From an uncultured Demequina sp. (GTDB lineage: Bacteria > Actinomycetota > Actinomycetes > Actinomycetales > Demequinaceae), in contig NZ_CAJXJX010000011.1 of the NCBI RefSeq assembly GCF_913055775.1, forward strand, positions 1-33,814: a stretch of DNA of 33,814 nucleotides, given 5' to 3'. Position numbers and translations under genes: made by a program. Below the pieces are notes generated by a model, which was not told the origin of the DNA, made no database searches, and saw only the letters and a list, made by a program, of their open reading frames with translations. Positions 17,366 through 23,750 of the stretch are shown here, piece after piece (position 1 is the first letter of the stretch; every line of letters starts with the position of its first letter).

Positions 17366-17898
17366 GAGGCGTACGGGGACGTCGGGTCGGCCGCGACGGT
17401 AGGCGCGCGGCGCCTGCGCCATAGGTTGAGCCCCACCACCACGGCCGCGATCACGAGCACGCCCAGCACGAGGAGCCACGGCGACCTCAGCCACGCCTCC
17501 CACAGCGACAGAGCAATCGCCGTGTAGATGGTGGCCCACGCCAGGCAGCCGGGGATCATCGCCAGCGTGTACAGGTCGAATCGCATGCGCGTGTAGCCCG
17601 CGGTCGCGTTCACCATGGTCTGGAAGCCCACGGTGAAGAAGGACAGCGGTATCGCCACGTAGCCGCGTCGCTCGATGAACTCGCGTGCGCGCTCCATGCC
17701 GGGACCCGAGAAGCGTCGCGCGAGGCGAGCCCTCCGGCTGTGGCGCTCCTCGGCTCTGTCGGCCACCGCATCGGCCCCCGTGCGAGCCCAGCGCGCGAGC
17801 CAGTAGGTCGCCTGGGTGCGGAAGAAGACCACGCCGGTAAGGAAGGAGAACAGTCCCCACCAGGGGCCGTCGAAGATGAAGGACGGAACGCCGGGCAT
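17362..17898 (-). CDS. VTT/DedA-like integral membrane protein
   Basis: From ATG 17898 the product is 178 residues, with hydrophobic segments at about 12-32, 84-104, 118-140 and 148-168. The middle part ([20 protein letters not shown], then [19 protein letters not shown] and [17 protein letters not shown]) resembles the DedA/VTT domain region, proteins linked to lipid scrambling and membrane homeostasis. Assignment to this family is by pattern only. The start overlaps the zur stop as TGATG, so it is translated with the znu-zur operon. It ends in a CTAG shared with uppS. No ribosome binding site is needed for a coupled start. Confidence 0.7.
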
Positions 17899-18317
17899 CA
17901 GTGGCCCTTCGCGGTGCAGGCCGCGCACACTCCCGTGATCTCGACGGTGTGGTCCATGCGAGCGAATCCGCGCTCGGTGGCGATGCGCGAGGCCCACTCC
18001 TCGAACTCGGGCACCTCGATGTCCTCCGCCTTGCCGCAGACGCGGCAGCGCAGGTGATGGTGGTGCTCGTCCACCGCTCCGCAGCGGCGGTAGAGGGTCT
18101 CGCCCGAGGACGTGACGACGGCGTCGACCTCGCCGGACTCGGCGAGGATCTGGAGCGATCGATAGACAGTGGCGAGCCCCACGGAGGAACCGTCGTGACG
18201 GAGGATGTCGTGCCACGACTGTGCCGACCGGAACTCATCGGTGCCGTCGAGCGCCTCGAGGATGGCGGCGCGCTGCTTGGTCATGCGTGGCGCGGGTGCG
18301 GCCTTGGCGTCCGTCAT
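17898..18317 (-). CDS. zur: Fur-family zinc uptake regulator Zur
   Basis: A 139-residue Fur-family repressor. The winged helix (about 10-75) contains SVGLATVYRSLQILAESGEV. The metal sites are visible: HHHHLRC (85-91), the structural-zinc pairs C91-x-x-C94 and C131-x-x-C134, and H123. The genome context (znuA, znuC, znuB in the same operon, and zinc-sparing ribosomal proteins nearby) makes it Zur rather than Fur. It binds zinc and represses at the boxes found at 21034-21048 and 22155-22169. ATG 18317 overlaps the znuB stop (ATGA), with GGAAGGAG upstream. Being last but one in the znu operon, it is probably autoregulated through the znuA promoter. Confidence 0.95.
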   Translation of the reverse strand: MTDAKAAPAPRMTKQRAAILEALDGTDEFRSAQSWHDILRHDGSSVGLATVYRSLQILAESGEVDAVVTSSGETLYRRCGAVDEHHHHLRCRVCGKAEDIEVPEFEEWASRIATERGFARMDHTVEITGVCAACTAKGH

Positions 18318-19216
18318 GCGGTGGCTCCTTCCGTCGGCTCGAGCGGCCGTTCTTCCGCCACAGCGTGGTCTCGCCTGCGGCGGCGGCTTCTCACGAGCCC
18401 AGCACTGGACGCTACCACGGCGTACAGCACGACCCCGAGGACGACGATCAGCGCGCCGGGCTGAAGGTCGTGGAACAGGGTGATGGCGACGCCGGCGACG
18501 CAGATCGCGACGCCCACCCCCATTGCCACGGCCATGGTGCGCGAGAACGAGCGCGTCACGATCTGGCTGACGGCGACAGGCAGGATCATGACGCCGCTGA
18601 CGAGCAGCACGCCCACCACGCGCATCGAGGCGGTGATGGTCACGGCCGCGAGGACCGCTACCACCATGTTGAGTGCACCCACGGGCAAGCCCACGGAGTG
18701 CGCAAACTCCTGGTCGTGGGTGACCGCGAAGAGCGACGCCCGCAGACCCACGCCGACCACCAGGATGGCGATCGACAGCGCGACGGTGACCCACACATCG
18801 GTCCAGCTCACCGTCGAGATGGAGCCGAAGAGGTAGCCCATGAGGTTGGCGTTCGACCCGCCCGCGGCGGAGATCAGCAGCACGCCCGTCGCGATGCCGC
18901 CGTAGAACATGATCGCCATGATGACGTCGGCGGCGGCGATGCCGCGGGCCCGCATGCGCTCGATCACCACGGCGCCCACGATCGCGAAGACGATCGCGCC
19001 CGGGATCGCGAGAGCATCCTGCTGGGCGAGGTCCGCCCACGACCCGGCCAGCCACCCCGCTGCGACTCCGGCGAGAGCCACGTGGCCGATCCCGTCTCCC
19101 AGGAGCGACATCCGACGCTGCACCAGGTAGGTGCCCACCACCGGCGCCGTCGCGCCCACGAGGATCGCCACGATCATCATGCGCTGGACCAGGGGATCGG
19201 TGAGCAGGTCGATCAT
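18314..19216 (-). CDS. znuB: Zinc ABC transporter permease ZnuB
   Basis: A 300-residue ABC-3 family permease with about eight or nine hydrophobic segments. It begins MIDLLTDPLVQRMMIVAILV and contains the family-typical QRRMSLLGDGIGHVALAG near the N-terminus. It forms the membrane channel of the zinc importer. ATG 19216 overlaps the znuC stop as ATGA and has GGGAGGTG upstream; an ATG at 19231 in the same frame is unlikely. Confidence 0.95.
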   Translation of the reverse strand: MIDLLTDPLVQRMMIVAILVGATAPVVGTYLVQRRMSLLGDGIGHVALAGVAAGWLAGSWADLAQQDALAIPGAIVFAIVGAVVIERMRARGIAAADVIMAIMFYGGIATGVLLISAAGGSNANLMGYLFGSISTVSWTDVWVTVALSIAILVVGVGLRASLFAVTHDQEFAHSVGLPVGALNMVVAVLAAVTITASMRVVGVLLVSGVMILPVAVSQIVTRSFSRTMAVAMGVGVAICVAGVAITLFHDLQPGALIVVLGVVLYAVVASSAGLVRSRRRRRDHAVAEERPLEPTEGATA

Positions 19217-20010
19217 GGCCGCACCTCCCACGCGAAGGTCGAGCCCTCAGGCTCGGCGACGTCGGCGTGCGCGTGCTCGTGGTCGTGGCCGGGGAGCGCA
19301 TGGACACCCAGCGCGCGAGGAGGCTCGCCGATGTGCGTCACGCAGCCCTGGTCGAGGACCACGGCGTGGTGCACGAGAGGCGCGAGCGGCCCGAGCTCGT
19401 GCAGCACGAGGATGATGGACGCGCCGGCGTCGCGACGCTCCGTCAAGGCCGCGGACAGCGCCTCCTGGCTGGGGACGTCGACGCCGGCCATGGGTTCGTC
19501 GAGGATCAGGACGTCCGGGTCGCGCACGAGTGCACGAGCGATGAGGACGCGCTGCTGCTCTCCGCCTGACAGCGACGCGACATCGCGGGTCGCGAGATGG
19601 GCGACGCCCAGGTGGTCGAGAGCGTCCATGGCCCGCGCTTTGGCGTCACGGGGAAGCAGCAGCTGGCCGGTGCCCAGCAGGCCCGAGCGGACCACCTCGC
19701 GGGCGGTCGCCGTGACGCCGCCTCCGGCGGAGGCGCGCTGGGGCACATAGCCGATGCGCGAGGCGGTTGCGCGAGAGCGAGGCCGTCCGAACACCTCGAT
19801 GGATCCAGCCGAGACGGGCAGCGCGCCCACGAGCGCACGGACGAGCGTGGACTTGCCCGAGCCATTGCCGCCCATGATCGCGACGGCCTCACCCGGGAAC
19901 GCGTCGAGGTCCACGCCGTGCAGGATCTCGTGGCCGCCCAGGCGCACGCGCACCGCGCGCGCCGTGATGGCGGGCGGGGTGTCGTGGTGGAAAGGGTCAG
20001 CTGCAGTCAA
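19213..20010 (-). CDS. znuC: Zinc ABC transporter ATP-binding protein ZnuC
   Basis: A 265-residue ABC ATPase: Walker A GGNGSGKST (47-55), Q-loop at PQR (90-92), signature LSGGE (147-151) and Walker B LILDEP (168-173), with a switch histidine in LVLHE. The C-terminus is His-rich (HDHEHAHAD), perhaps a metal sensor. The first codon is TTG at 20010, overlapping the znuA end by 14 nt, with GAGGACC upstream; the next in-frame GTG would remove 19 residues. Confidence 0.94.
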   Translation of the reverse strand: MTAADPFHHDTPPAITARAVRVRLGGHEILHGVDLDAFPGEAVAIMGGNGSGKSTLVRALVGALPVSAGSIEVFGRPRSRATASRIGYVPQRASAGGGVTATAREVVRSGLLGTGQLLLPRDAKARAMDALDHLGVAHLATRDVASLSGGEQQRVLIARALVRDPDVLILDEPMAGVDVPSQEALSAALTERRDAGASIILVLHELGPLAPLVHHAVVLDQGCVTHIGEPPRALGVHALPGHDHEHAHADVAEPEGSTFAWEVRP

Positions 20011-21013
20011 GCCCGGTCCTCAGCGCCTCGAGGTTGCGCTCCATGACCGAGAGGTAGTCGTCGCCTTCGGCGATCGACTCGATCGGGTCGAGCACCTCGG
20101 TGGAGACGCCCACGTCCTCGGCGAGCGAGTCGGCGACGTTCGCGCTGACGAGCGACTCGGTGAAGATCGTGGTCGCCCCCGTGTCCTCGACGAGGTCGCG
20201 GATCGCGCGCACCCGAGCAGGGGAGGGCTCCGCCTCGGGGTCCAGCCCGGACAGGCCCTCCTGGTGGAGGTCGTAGCGGGCGGACAGGTACCCGTAGGCC
20301 TCGTGGCTCACGAAGATATCGCGGCGCTCGCACATCGCGAGGCCGTCCGTGTAGGCCGCGTCGAGGTCGGTCAGGTCTGCCTTCAGTGCCTCGGCCCGCT
20401 CCTCGTACGAGGCGGCGTTGTCGGGGTCGAGCTCGGAGAACTCTGCGGCGACATCATCCGCGAACTCGGCCACGAGCGTCGGGTCCTGCCAGAAGTGCGG
20501 GTCGACGGCGCCGTGATCGTGGTCGTGGTCGTCGCCCTCCTCCTCGTCCTCGTGCGCCTCATCCTCGGCGTGATCGTGGTCGTCGTCCTCGTGCGCCTCG
20601 CCCGTCTCGTGGTCGTGGTCGGCCTCGGCGTGGGCCACCACGTCGCCGACGTGCTCGTCGACGATGTGGTGCGCATCGAGGGAGCGCACGCCCGTGGTCT
20701 CGATCGCGTCGTCCACCGCAGCGGAGAAGTCGGACAGGAAGACCACCGTGTCCATGCCCTGCATCGATCGCACCGTGGCCGGTGACATCTCGGCATCGTG
20801 CGGCTCCACGCCCGCGGCGATGAGGGACGAGACAGCGACGTCCTCGCCGCCCACGCGCTCGGCGACGAACTGCAGCGGGTAAAAGGACGCGCCTACCACG
20901 AGGCTGGCATTGGGGTTGTCGAACGACGAGGCGTCACCGGAGGACGACGAGCAGCCGGCAAGCGAGAGGATGCCGACGCACGCGCCAGCGACGAGAAAAC
21001 GGGGGAGAGACAT
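19997..21013 (-). CDS. znuA: Zinc-binding lipoprotein ZnuA (ABC substrate-binding protein)
   Basis: From ATG 21013 the product is 338 residues. The lipoprotein signal peptide ends in LAGC with the lipidated Cys at 21. The zinc ligands of the cluster A-1 fold are H72 (EPHD), H173 (DPHFW) and H237 (VSHEAYGYL). Between them lies a long Asp/Glu/His-rich loop (about 115-168, with DDHDHDHG), the known zinc-collecting loop of ZnuA proteins. It is anchored outside the membrane and delivers zinc to ZnuBC. The reading frame continues upstream to 21112, but ATG 21013 has TATTCT exactly 7 nt upstream and no ribosome binding site, indicating a leaderless start under a Zur-controlled promoter. Confidence 0.96.
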   Translation of the reverse strand: MSLPRFLVAGACVGILSLAGCSSSSGDASSFDNPNASLVVGASFYPLQFVAERVGGEDVAVSSLIAAGVEPHDAEMSPATVRSMQGMDTVVFLSDFSAAVDDAIETTGVRSLDAHHIVDEHVGDVVAHAEADHDHETGEAHEDDDHDHAEDEAHEDEEEGDDHDHDHGAVDPHFWQDPTLVAEFADDVAAEFSELDPDNAASYEERAEALKADLTDLDAAYTDGLAMCERRDIFVSHEAYGYLSARYDLHQEGLSGLDPEAEPSPARVRAIRDLVEDTGATTIFTESLVSANVADSLAEDVGVSTEVLDPIESIAEGDDYLSVMERNLEALRTGLDCS

Positions 21014-21020
21014 GCGAGAA

Positions 21021-21049
21021 AGAATACCGTTCTTGATAATCGTTGTCGA
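21021..21049 (-). promoter_or_regulatory. znuA promoter with embedded Zur box
   Basis: On the minus strand: -35 TCGACA (21049-21044), a 17-nt spacer, -10 TATTCT (21026-21021), then 7 nt to ATG 21013. The Zur box CGACAACGATTATCA (21048-21034) covers the -35 and half of the spacer, so bound Zur would block RNA polymerase. It has the pattern CGANAACGATTNTCA, shared with the second box. Confidence 0.85.
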
Positions 21050-21050
21050 T

Positions 21051-22133
21051 CTAGGCTGCGTTGGCGTCGGAGCCGCCGTCGGCCTCCCCAAACCAGTCGG
21101 CGAGGGTGTCACTTCCAGGAGTCTCGGACGGGGACGCGAGCGCCGCGGCGAACGCGCTTGCGATCACGTCGCGCTCGTCACCGACGCCCGTGATCAGCAG
21201 TTCCGTGCGCGGCCTGCGACCCTCCCACGTGCCGATCTCGCCCACGCTCAGCTGGCCCGCCGACTCCTCCCACACGCATGCGCCGCCGGGGCGCGACGCG
21301 ACCCAGAAGTGCCCTCGCGCTCGCACGCGGTGGTCCGCTAGCCGGTGGAGGTTTTCGCGCAGCCGTCCGGCGTCGAAGGCTCGCTCGCTCGACAGGCGCA
21401 GGGTCCACACCCCCGCACGGTCCTCCGGGGTGCGCCGTGGCAGTCGCAGCGGGTCCACGCGCTCGAGGCAGTCGCGGGTGCGCCCGCACGGGCGCGACAG
21501 CAGCGCCTCGCCCACCTCGCTGAGCTCGGACTCGATGATGCGGCTGCCGTCGCCGCGCAGGTGGTCGGCGACGGCGCGGGCGCCCTCGGGCGCCGGAGAG
21601 TCGCCGCTGAGGACAATGAGGTCGGCCGCGGCCATGATGGGCGCGAGAGCCTCGGCCAGAACGCGGTCGTCGTCCTCGTGCATGCCGAGTCCCAGATCCT
21701 CGATCCACGCGTCGGAGAAAGCGTCGTCGCGTAGCGTCGCCGCGTCGACCACGGCCGCAACCGTGCCGAAGCGCGCGCCCGCGAGCGAGCCGGTCCGCCG
21801 CAGCTCGGCGTCGAGCAGCCGCACGAGCGGCGCGGGCTCCGCGGTGACAGGCAGGGCGACGACTGCATGCTCCCACCGGTCCAGTCGGCGCAGTCCCACC
21901 AGCGTGGGCAGGACGTCCTCGCGGATCGCGCAGGAGACGCAGGCGTGGTCGAGGGGAGTGACGACCGTCTCGAGGACTCCGGTGGCGTCCGCGACGGTGC
22001 GGCGCACGCCGCCGTCAAGAATGTCGTGAGTGATCACGACGGTGTCGCCGCGGTCGATGGTGAGCCCGAACGCGGCTGATGCGCGAACGACGGGGTCGAT
22101 GGTCGTGAGAGTCGAGATGGTGAAACTGGTCAT
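21051..22133 (-). CDS. COG0523 (CobW-like) protein lacking GTPase motifs, Zur-controlled
   Basis: From ATG 22133 the product is 360 residues. The C-terminal CobW domain is clear (VRARGHFWVASRP, then WEGRRPRTELLITG), and an N-terminal COG0523-like domain carries CVSCAIREDVLPTL where active members have CxCC followed by RED. The P-loop GxxGxGKT is missing: the N-terminus is MTSFTISTLTTIDPVVRA. The usual NKxD is also absent (LIVLSGDS in its place), and EtSG-type switch residues are replaced by ALPVTAEPAP. It is thus probably a non-GTPase relative of zinc chaperones such as YciC/ZigA. It is divergent from rpmB, with a Zur box between, and likely leaderless (TACAGT 7 nt upstream). Direct metal handling is inferred. 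Confidence 0.85.
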   Translation of the reverse strand: MTSFTISTLTTIDPVVRASAAFGLTIDRGDTVVITHDILDGGVRRTVADATGVLETVVTPLDHACVSCAIREDVLPTLVGLRRLDRWEHAVVALPVTAEPAPLVRLLDAELRRTGSLAGARFGTVAAVVDAATLRDDAFSDAWIEDLGLGMHEDDDRVLAEALAPIMAAADLIVLSGDSPAPEGARAVADHLRGDGSRIIESELSEVGEALLSRPCGRTRDCLERVDPLRLPRRTPEDRAGVWTLRLSSERAFDAGRLRENLHRLADHRVRARGHFWVASRPGGACVWEESAGQLSVGEIGTWEGRRPRTELLITGVGDERDVIASAFAAALASPSETPGSDTLADWFGEADGGSDANAA

Positions 22134-22140
22134 GGAGAGC

Positions 22141-22179
22141 ACTGTAGCATTTGACGAGAACGATTCTCATTACTAGAGT
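22141..22179. promoter_or_regulatory. Divergent Zur-controlled promoters for rpmB and the COG0523 gene
   Basis: Plus strand: TTGACG (22151-22156), a 17-nt spacer, TAGAGT (22174-22179), then 8 nt to the rpmB ATG. Minus strand: TACAGT (22146-22141), then 7 nt to ATG 22133, with TGAGAA at the -35 position. A single Zur box CGAGAACGATTCTCA (22155-22169), with the perfect core GAGAA-CGA-TTCTC, lies in the rpmB spacer and over the -35 of the other promoter, so one site can control both. Confidence 0.85.
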
Positions 22180-22427: not shown

Positions 22428-22594
22428 TGGCCAAGGGAAAAGATATCCGGGACAAGATCACCCTGGAGTCCACCGCGGGCACAGGCACGCGCTACGTGAC
22501 GACCAAGAGCCGCCGCAACACCCCGGACCGGCTCGTGATCCGCAAGTACGACAAGGCGATCAGGCGCCACGTCGAGTTCAAGGAGACCCGCTGA
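22427..22594 (+). CDS. rpmG: 50S ribosomal protein L33, cysteine-free paralog
   Basis: A 55-residue L33 ([20 protein letters not shown], ending RHVEFKETR). It has no cysteine at all, the zinc-independent form. It overlaps rpmB and rpsN at TGATG junctions on both sides. Confidence 0.96.
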
Positions 22595-22899
22595 TGGCGA
22601 AGAAGAGCAAGATCGCCCGCAACAAGCAGCGCGAGGAGGTGGTCGCCCGGTACGCCGAGCGCCGCCTCGAACTCAAGCGTGCATCCGTCAACCCGCACCT
22701 CAGCGCGGACGAGCGCGACGCGGCGATGAAGGCGCTGCACGCGCTGCCGCGAGACGCGAGCCCCACCCGTCTGCGCAATCGCGGGTCGAGCGATGGCCGT
22801 CCGCGCGGCAATCTCAGGAAGTTCGGACTGTCGCGCGTCAAGTTCCGCGAGGCGGCCCACCGCGGTGAGCTGCCCGGCATCACGAAGTCGAGTTGGTGA
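22594..22899 (+). CDS. rpsN: 30S ribosomal protein S14, cysteine-free long form
   Basis: A 101-residue S14 ([20 protein letters not shown], with [20 protein letters not shown]). The long, cysteine-free form replaces the 61-residue zinc-binding S14 when zinc is scarce. ATG overlaps the rpmG stop by one base. Confidence 0.96.
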
Positions 22900-22900
22900 C

Positions 22901-23152
22901 ATGAAGCACGGTATCCACCCGCCCTACGGCCCCGTCGTCTTCCGTGACAAGGCCGCCGACTGGGCGTTCCTGACCCGCTCGACGATGACCTCCGAAGAGA
23001 CTATCGAGTGGACCGACGGGAACACGTACCCCGTGGTAGACGTCGAGATCTCCTCAGCCAGCCATCCGTTCTACACCGGCCAGCAGCGCGTGGTCGACAC
23101 CGCCGGACGCGTCGAGCGCTTCCGGCGCCGCTATGGGAAGGAAGCCTCATGA
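22901..23152 (+). CDS. rpmE2: 50S ribosomal protein L31 type B (zinc-free)
   Basis: An 83-residue L31 type B ([20 protein letters not shown], then [20 protein letters not shown]). It has no cysteine, while the zinc-binding type A has a CxxC pair. Type B L31 is a classic Zur target that displaces the zinc form. It starts 1 nt after the rpsN stop. Confidence 0.95.
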
Positions 23153-23271
23153 AGGTCCGCGCCAGCATCCGGTCCCTGGCCCGCAAGGAGGGCGCGATCG
23201 TCGTGCGCCGTCGGGGCAAGACCTACGTCATCAACAAGCGCAATCCGCGCTTCAAGGCGCGACAGGGGTAG
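23149..23271 (+). CDS. rpmJ: 50S ribosomal protein L36, cysteine-free paralog
   Basis: A 40-residue L36 ([20 protein letters not shown], ending NPRFKARQG). The three cysteines and the histidine of the zinc form are replaced. It overlaps rpmE2 as ATGA. Confidence 0.95.
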
Positions 23272-23465: not shown

Positions 23466-23750
23466 ATGACCCTCACCCGCTCCGACGTCGCCTCGAAGAT
23501 CGCCGACGGCACCGACCTCACGCAGGCTCAGGCAGCCGATGCGCTCAAGGCCTTCGAGAAGGTCGTCACCGAGGCGGTGGCAGCAGGCGAGGCCGTCAAG
23601 CTGACGGGCTTCCTCCAGGTTGACACCGGCGAGCGCGCTGCGCGCACCGGCCGCAACCCCCAGACCGGCGAGACCCTCGAGATCCCCGCGACCACCGTCG
23701 TGAAGCTCTCGGCCGGCGCCACGCTCAAGGCAGCAGCCAAGGGCGCGTAA
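23466..23750 (+). CDS. HU family nucleoid-associated DNA-binding protein
   Basis: A 94-residue HU/IHF-type protein: [20 protein letters not shown] at the N-terminus, then the DNA-binding arm [20 protein letters not shown] with the conserved R-N-P-x-T-G-E. It lacks the long Lys/Ala-rich tail of mycobacterial and Streptomyces HupB/HupS. AAAGGAATGAC gives a good ribosome binding site before ATG 23466. Only 10 nt separate it from rpmF, so it is probably on the Zur-controlled transcript, unless a promoter lies inside rpmF. A strong terminator follows. Confidence 0.93.

Follow-up and report, generated by a model that had tools for sequence, protein, structure and literature searches.

The mrf-like gene at positions 22133 to 21051 (minus strand) of the window, that is, of the whole 33,814-nucleotide stretch of DNA analyzed here, encodes a P-loop-less COG0523-like protein of 360 residues (P0001), a divergent member of an MRF-like clade of an already described kind. 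As judged from its AlphaFold model, the phosphate loop is gone while the COG0523 fold is kept, and the protein is likely a pseudo-GTPase in a predicted zinc regulon. Its most likely role, to which a probability of roughly 0.6 is assigned, is that of a nucleotide-independent, zinc-responsive ribosome-hibernation helper working like the mycobacterial factor Mrf. The original prediction had taken the role of such a protein to be undescribed, which is contradicted by the available text of Haas et al. (2009) on Rv0106 and of a 2026 review on Mrf (PMC13418864); its suggestion of an adaptor for target proteins is the best guess.

Sequence and Predicted Structure of the Mrf-like Protein

The open reading frame starts with ATG and contains no internal stops. 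Pfam places a CobW_C domain (PF07683) at residues 244–332 (39 bits vs a cut-off of 22) and a cobW N-domain at residues 32–176 (24 bits vs a cut-off of 20.7), the latter starting behind the P-loop position. In the alignment with P-loop relatives, TIDPVVRA stands at the Walker A P-loop GxxxxGK[ST] (GFLGAGKT), ALPV at the Walker B region with its Glu (ESTG), SGDS at NKxD, and CVSC (residues 65–68) followed by AIRED at the metal motif CxCC, so that these signatures of COG0523/G3E proteins are absent. This agrees with the original description of an intact gene that keeps CobW_C, lacks the P-loop and NKxD, and has its CxCC reduced to CVSC followed by RED.

The AlphaFold model of P0001 is confident (pLDDT 93.1, pTM 0.90), with β1 spanning residues 5–10 and α1 residues 14–27. 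A P-loop recovered by structure was an outcome that the original prediction had itself named as speaking against it; none appears, three residues being left between β1 and α1 at the phosphate-loop position. The P-loop control, a poor model with a pLDDT of 68 that was used for the P-loop turn alone, has β1 at residues 3–10 and α1 from K16. A P-loop masked by misalignment was also considered and ruled out, the alignment of P0001 with the P-loop rows being gap-free there and the model offering no space for it. Furthermore, none of 151 distinct homologues, chosen by a profile built from P-loop-less sequences, carries a P-loop, and the loss is therefore not a chance event in one gene.

Regarding solved structures, the best matches of the model are three entries of E. 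coli YjiA (PDB 1nij, 4ixm, and 4ixn), which align across both domains with Z of 14.1–14.8 and an rmsd of 8.5–9.1 over 277–281 residues (top match: Z 14.8, rmsd 8.6 over 277 residues), followed by a UreG complex with Z 11.2 and an rmsd of 3.5 over 159 residues. CobW_C and the YjiA-like two-domain fold of COG0523/G3E proteins are thus found in P0001 by Pfam and by structure comparison. The whole-chain TM-score to YjiA from Foldseek is low (0.36–0.38), as would be expected if the two domains are differently set. The Foldseek rows under YjiA (Hsp70 and others) were treated as chance matches, with E > 1e-4. Unlike the P-loop-less P0001, YjiA is a verified GTPase according to the available text of Haas et al. 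(2009).

The window belongs to a draft genome of 2.71 Mb in 208 contigs (97.3% complete), in which P0001 matches only itself and no second CobW_C protein was found. Nothing in this draft exceeds the PF02492 cut-off, in a search that also failed to list P0001; the single PF02492 match, C48, reaches 19.8 bits against the cut-off of 20.7, and degenerate members can escape that search. Within these bounds, a canonical YciC or ZigA elsewhere in the genome was not detected, and the earlier idea that P0001 acts as a regulator of another, active COG0523 protein of its cell is left unsupported. The genome encodes one long HPF (221 residues, PF02482 and PF16321), the candidate partner for an Mrf-like protein, as well as ClpS; both are common, and their presence supports an Mrf-like role weakly.

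Relation to MRF and ZigA

Among NCBIfam models, the best match of P0001 is NF047431 (ribosome hibernation factor-recruiting GTPase MRF) at 100.9 bits; because the curated equivalog cut-off of 375 bits is not reached, the protein is not filed as an MRF equivalog. At the sequence level, it carries the CXXC motif of MRF as CVSC. The model of ZigA-type zinc metallochaperones, NF038288, gives 65.2 bits, short of its cut-off of 600. Across the phylum, 11 of 248 genomes exceed the NF047431 cut-off, and all 11 sequences are P-loop-less, carry the CxxC and come from one family code, f19. On sequence matches this code corresponds to Mycobacteriaceae, because its member L019 is 100% identical to a [Mycobacterium] fortunisiensis record and 77 Mycobacteriaceae names occur among the best 80 of 545 relatives, obtained by scanning named genomes with an alignment of six f19 rows as query; the other 3 of these 80 are MAGs named only Actinobacteria or Actinomycetes. 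These 80 relatives, the best of 545, include no sequence of M. tuberculosis or M. smegmatis, so that the link from P0001 to Rv0106 and MSMEG_6069 runs via the NCBIfam model, Haas et al. (2009) and the review, and not via the sequences of these two proteins.

For Rv0106, the available text of Haas et al. (2009) reports the same motif losses and infers that there is no GTPase activity. The accessible part of the review (PMC13418864) identifies Rv0106 and MSMEG_6069 as Mrf, which recruits Mpy, a hibernation factor, to ribosomes free of zinc and is turned off in mycobacteria via ClpS/ClpC1P when zinc returns. MSMEG_6069 is described in the accessible text of PMC7174638 as a Zur-dependent, CobW-like MRF of M. 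smegmatis with a Zur site, adjoining alternative ribosomal genes. For M. avium ssp. paratuberculosis, the available portion of PMC4298942 gives Rv0106 as the orthologue of MAP3770, a gene that zinc starvation induces and that carries two predicted Zur boxes.

P0001 accordingly resembles Mrf/MRF (Rv0106, MSMEG_6069; NF047431) in the absent P-loop, the CxxC in place of CxCC and the CobW_C domain, and its gene in the Zur box (predicted in the present case) and the adjoining zinc-free ribosomal genes. Its identity to the 11 Mycobacteriaceae rows is 20–25%, and, compared with the Mycobacteriaceae MRFs, its C-terminal domain is shorter and a DPC-type tail is absent. P-loop-less homologues from the f18/g21 genomes, which from their context appear to be of Streptomyces type, have likewise lost the P-loop and adjoin genes for type B L31 and L28, but unlike P0001 they keep CACC. 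The metallochaperone GTPases of ZigA/YciC type share CobW_C with P0001, and a Zur-like box is common among them (6/10 P-loop ORFs); unlike P0001, they possess a GFLGAGKT-type P-loop, an ESTG-type Walker B, a KxD motif and CxCC.

Zinc-Related Genes in the Window

Back to back with the mrf-like gene, on the plus strand, lies an operon of five small ribosomal protein genes, namely rpmB2 (L28, 22188..22427), rpmG (L33, 22427..22594), rpsN (S14, 22594..22899), rpmE2 (type B L31, 22901..23152), and an ORF at 23149..23271 which, by resemblance, we take to be rpmJ-like (L36). The first four were assigned from library matches and sequence, the last from sequence. All five products are without CXXC, and those of the four genes after rpmB2 contain no Cys at all; the other L28 of the genome carries two CXXC motifs. 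An HU/IHF-like DNA-binding protein is encoded at 23466–23750 on the plus strand, directly downstream of this operon.

The intergenic region that separates the mrf-like gene from the divergent operon holds a predicted Zur box, the 15-base palindrome CGAGAACGATTCTCA (on the plus strand, 22155..22169), at a distance of 21 bases from the mrf-like ATG and 18 bases from the rpmB start. A second predicted box, a pattern match at 21034..21048, is situated upstream of znuA. The Zur pattern occurs 7 times in the window vs a mean of 0.71 in shuffles; the two sites (21034, 22155) contribute one match per strand, and the other three matches are weak. Further along the minus strand follow znuA (zinc-binding lipoprotein, 19997..21016; PF01297), znuC (ABC ATPase, 19213..20010) and znuB (ABC-3 permease, 18314..19231), both from library matches, and a Fur-family regulator (17898..18317; PF01475), which reaches no NCBIfam equivalog cut-off and is named zur by context. 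Taken together, the palindrome and the second box uphold Zur control of the mrf-like gene as a prediction from sequence.

Linkage and Co-occurrence with Zinc-Free Ribosomal Genes

The distribution of this arrangement was examined in selected regions. Sixty came from two homologue searches, one of which matched 126 of 295 genomes, and include a few low-scoring P-loop matches; the others are 20 P-loop controls and 12 from the NF047431 search. Of the 57 P-loop-less ORFs, with fragments and the gene of P0001 counted, 45 have a relative of the L28, L33, S14, L31B or L36 of the window at a distance of at most 4 kb; the remaining 12, some of them at contig ends, have no such gene within this distance. 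Such a neighbor accompanies 7 of 22 P-loop control ORFs, in five loci; the control list held 23 ORFs, 8 with a neighbor, of which L253|5953 is P-loop-less and was left out. The difference between 45/57 and 7/22 gives a Fisher p of 1.5e-4, with kinship ignored. Zinc-free and zinc-binding ribosomal neighbors are counted together in these figures, the L28 of seven genus loci alone having been sorted. The 60 regions contain 10 P-loop ORFs, 4 of which have a ribosomal neighbor; in all four cases the locus also holds a P-loop-less ORF.

A Zur-like box (at most 2 mismatches) occurs upstream of 49/57 P-loop-less ORFs vs 6.8% of 3000 stretches drawn at random from their loci. Since it is also found at 6 of the 10 P-loop ORFs of these loci, the box marks a wider zinc regulon and not the P-loop-less clade alone. 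The gene of P0001 shows both traits of the clade, the link to zinc-free-type ribosomal genes and the predicted Zur box.

Among the 25 genomes of the genus, that of the window included, the full-length gene is present in 7, a second L28 in the identical 7, and neither in 16 (p 4e-6, or 7e-5 with the genomes G007 and G014 counted against the association). The L28 adjoining the gene is without CXXC in all seven. G007 holds a gene fragment at a contig end (L082:1-543) and G014 a 5'-truncated remnant (L083:4497-5066), both by znuA, and the second L28 is absent from both. For 14 further genomes of the order, both genes are found in 5 and neither in 6, the gene alone in one (G036), and the second L28 alone in two (G029 and G030), of which G030 gives two weak matches to the clade profile.

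Phylogeny and Possible Order of Motif Losses

The trees were built without the four motif regions, and the P-loop trait therefore cannot itself produce the clade. The careful tree comprises 90 rows, of which 55 are P-loop-less; these form one side of a branch with support of 100/100, found in 100% of 200 bootstrap trees, and the same split (100/100) is obtained in an enlarged tree of 95 rows, with five added and 56 P-loop-less. The stable P-loop-less clade that the original prediction had envisaged is thus recovered with the motif columns removed. It holds P0001, the Mycobacteriaceae MRFs (including the sequences over the NF047431 cut-off) and the Streptomyces-type rows, and spans 20 family codes. 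Two divergent rows (L157_646 and L159_1426) and four short pieces were dropped before the first tree. The first tree (93 rows) still included L170_3, L126_4344 and L128_4532, and in it the P-loop-less label requires two changes, the second being L170_3, a P-loop gene cut at the locus end and thus seemingly P-loop-less; all three were dropped before the careful trees, the latter two as highly degenerate, long rows. Among the sampled rows, the P-loop was hence lost once.

The next branch of the unrooted tree joins the clade with the pair L270_4395/L276_4413 (98/94). This pair retains P-loops (GFLRAGKS in L270, GVPGAGKS in L276) as well as the Glu and Gly of ESTG, and has lost NKxD; L276 (4413-5867) reads CLHC for CxCC and has L28, L33 and L31B genes nearby. 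From a YjiA/CobW-type root, the 20 ZigA-like rows (88/86) are the sister of the clade plus the pair, all 78 being united at 100/98. If the pair is the true sister, the P-loop would have been lost later than NKxD, and this stepwise decay is possibly new. Both motifs are absent from 57/57 P-loop-less rows, and the Glu of ESTG is left in 9 of these 57, P0001 not among them.

L276:4413-5867 and L270:4395-5678 are possible decay intermediates. L126:4344-5639 and L128:4532-5668 are very degenerate members adjoining Fur-family and znu genes, and in L126 even the Cys pair is lost. At L253:4441-7194, a COG0523 gene with a P-loop adjoins one without, together with L28, L33, and L31B; the genome of this locus is listed as sharing only the phylum with that of the window.

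Candidate Zinc Site

The Cys pair at 65/68 is present in 56/57 P-loop-less rows. Two further positions distinguish the clade: position 36 is His in 46/57 P-loop-less rows and Asn in 35/35 P-loop rows, and position 63 is His in 50/57 P-loop-less rows vs 0/35 P-loop rows. Both positions are Asn in 18/18 ZigA-like rows. As a hypothesis from these alignment patterns, H36 and H63 could complete a Cys2His2 zinc site with C65 and C68. Among the 151 distinct clade sequences, H63 occurs in 106 and a middle Cys in 22, with both in none and neither in 23. The 22 middle-Cys sequences have Asn or Asp at position 63, and those in the alignment are of Streptomyces type; because the exclusion possibly reflects one event, it is no independent proof. 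The clade-specific histidines are possibly new: the literature searched, which covers subscription papers thinly, holds no statement on them or on a family-wide lack of the P-loop across actinobacteria.

Proposed Function and Alternatives

The proposed mechanism follows that of Mrf. When zinc is scarce, Zur would leave the shared promoter region, and P0001 would be produced together with the zinc-free ribosomal proteins. The zinc-free protein would be stable and would help to load the long HPF onto the remodelled ribosomes, without the use of GTP. Upon the return of zinc, P0001 would bind the metal by its CxxC, with H36 and H63 as candidate further ligands, and the zinc-bound form would be shut off in the manner of mycobacterial Mrf via ClpS/ClpC1P. 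Zinc-induced hibernation in mycobacteria is itself said to be disputed, reportedly by Tobiasson et al. in 2019, and no experiments on Mrf-like proteins outside mycobacteria were found in the literature searched. A bolder, tentative proposal, with the odds against it, concerns the origin of this function: a GTP-gated CxCC site in the ancestor shared with the ZigA-like proteins may have been rebuilt stepwise, first by loss of NKxD and then of the P-loop, with two Asn replaced by H36 and H63, into a Cys2His2 sensor coupling zinc to hibernation beyond mycobacteria.

P0001 might instead be a GTP-independent zinc store or carrier that keeps or hands on the last zinc under starvation and leaves HPF and the ribosomes untouched. 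The YjiA-like fold (Z 14.8, rmsd 8.6, 277 residues), the almost invariant CxxC (56/57 rows) with its clade-specific histidines, and the position next to znuABC are consistent with this. Carriers of the G3E type load and release metal using GTP, however, whereas the P-loop and NKxD are missing from 57/57 rows; the gene moreover accompanies ribosomal genes, and a store or carrier is on balance unlikely. A similarly doubtful possibility is an assembly or swap factor for the zinc-free ribosomal proteins, acting in remodelling instead of hibernation. The shared divergent promoter region and the occurrence in the identical 7 of 25 genus genomes as the second L28 would fit such a factor, but the mycobacterial relative is reported, in the accessible part of PMC13418864, to act in Mpy recruitment.

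It is very improbable that the gene is decaying and without function. The truncated copies in G014 and, at a contig end, in G007 and the lack of any match in 16/25 genus genomes could be read in this way, but the ORF of P0001 is full-length, its CxxC, HxC, and CobW_C are conserved, its frame is unbroken against the G015 homologue at 71% identity, and its model is confident and compact; in G014, where a remnant is left, the second L28 is absent too. Least probable of all is that nucleotide is still bound independently of the P-loop, as the retained G3E fold and the ESTG Glu of 9/57 P-loop-less rows (P0001 excepted) might suggest, given that the P-loop and NKxD are missing from 57/57 rows and the P-loop turn is gone from the model.

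Implications

With the Mrf-like hibernation helper as the preferred reading, the P-loop-less COG0523-like gene in this zinc regulon is no orphan but an Mrf relative. NF047431 is named as a GTPase, yet the 11 sequences found here over its cut-off are P-loop-less, and the label merits review. The proposed Cys2His2 site offers point mutants. Furthermore, the 20 family codes within the clade make it testable whether hibernation under zinc starvation is special to mycobacteria or general among actinobacteria.
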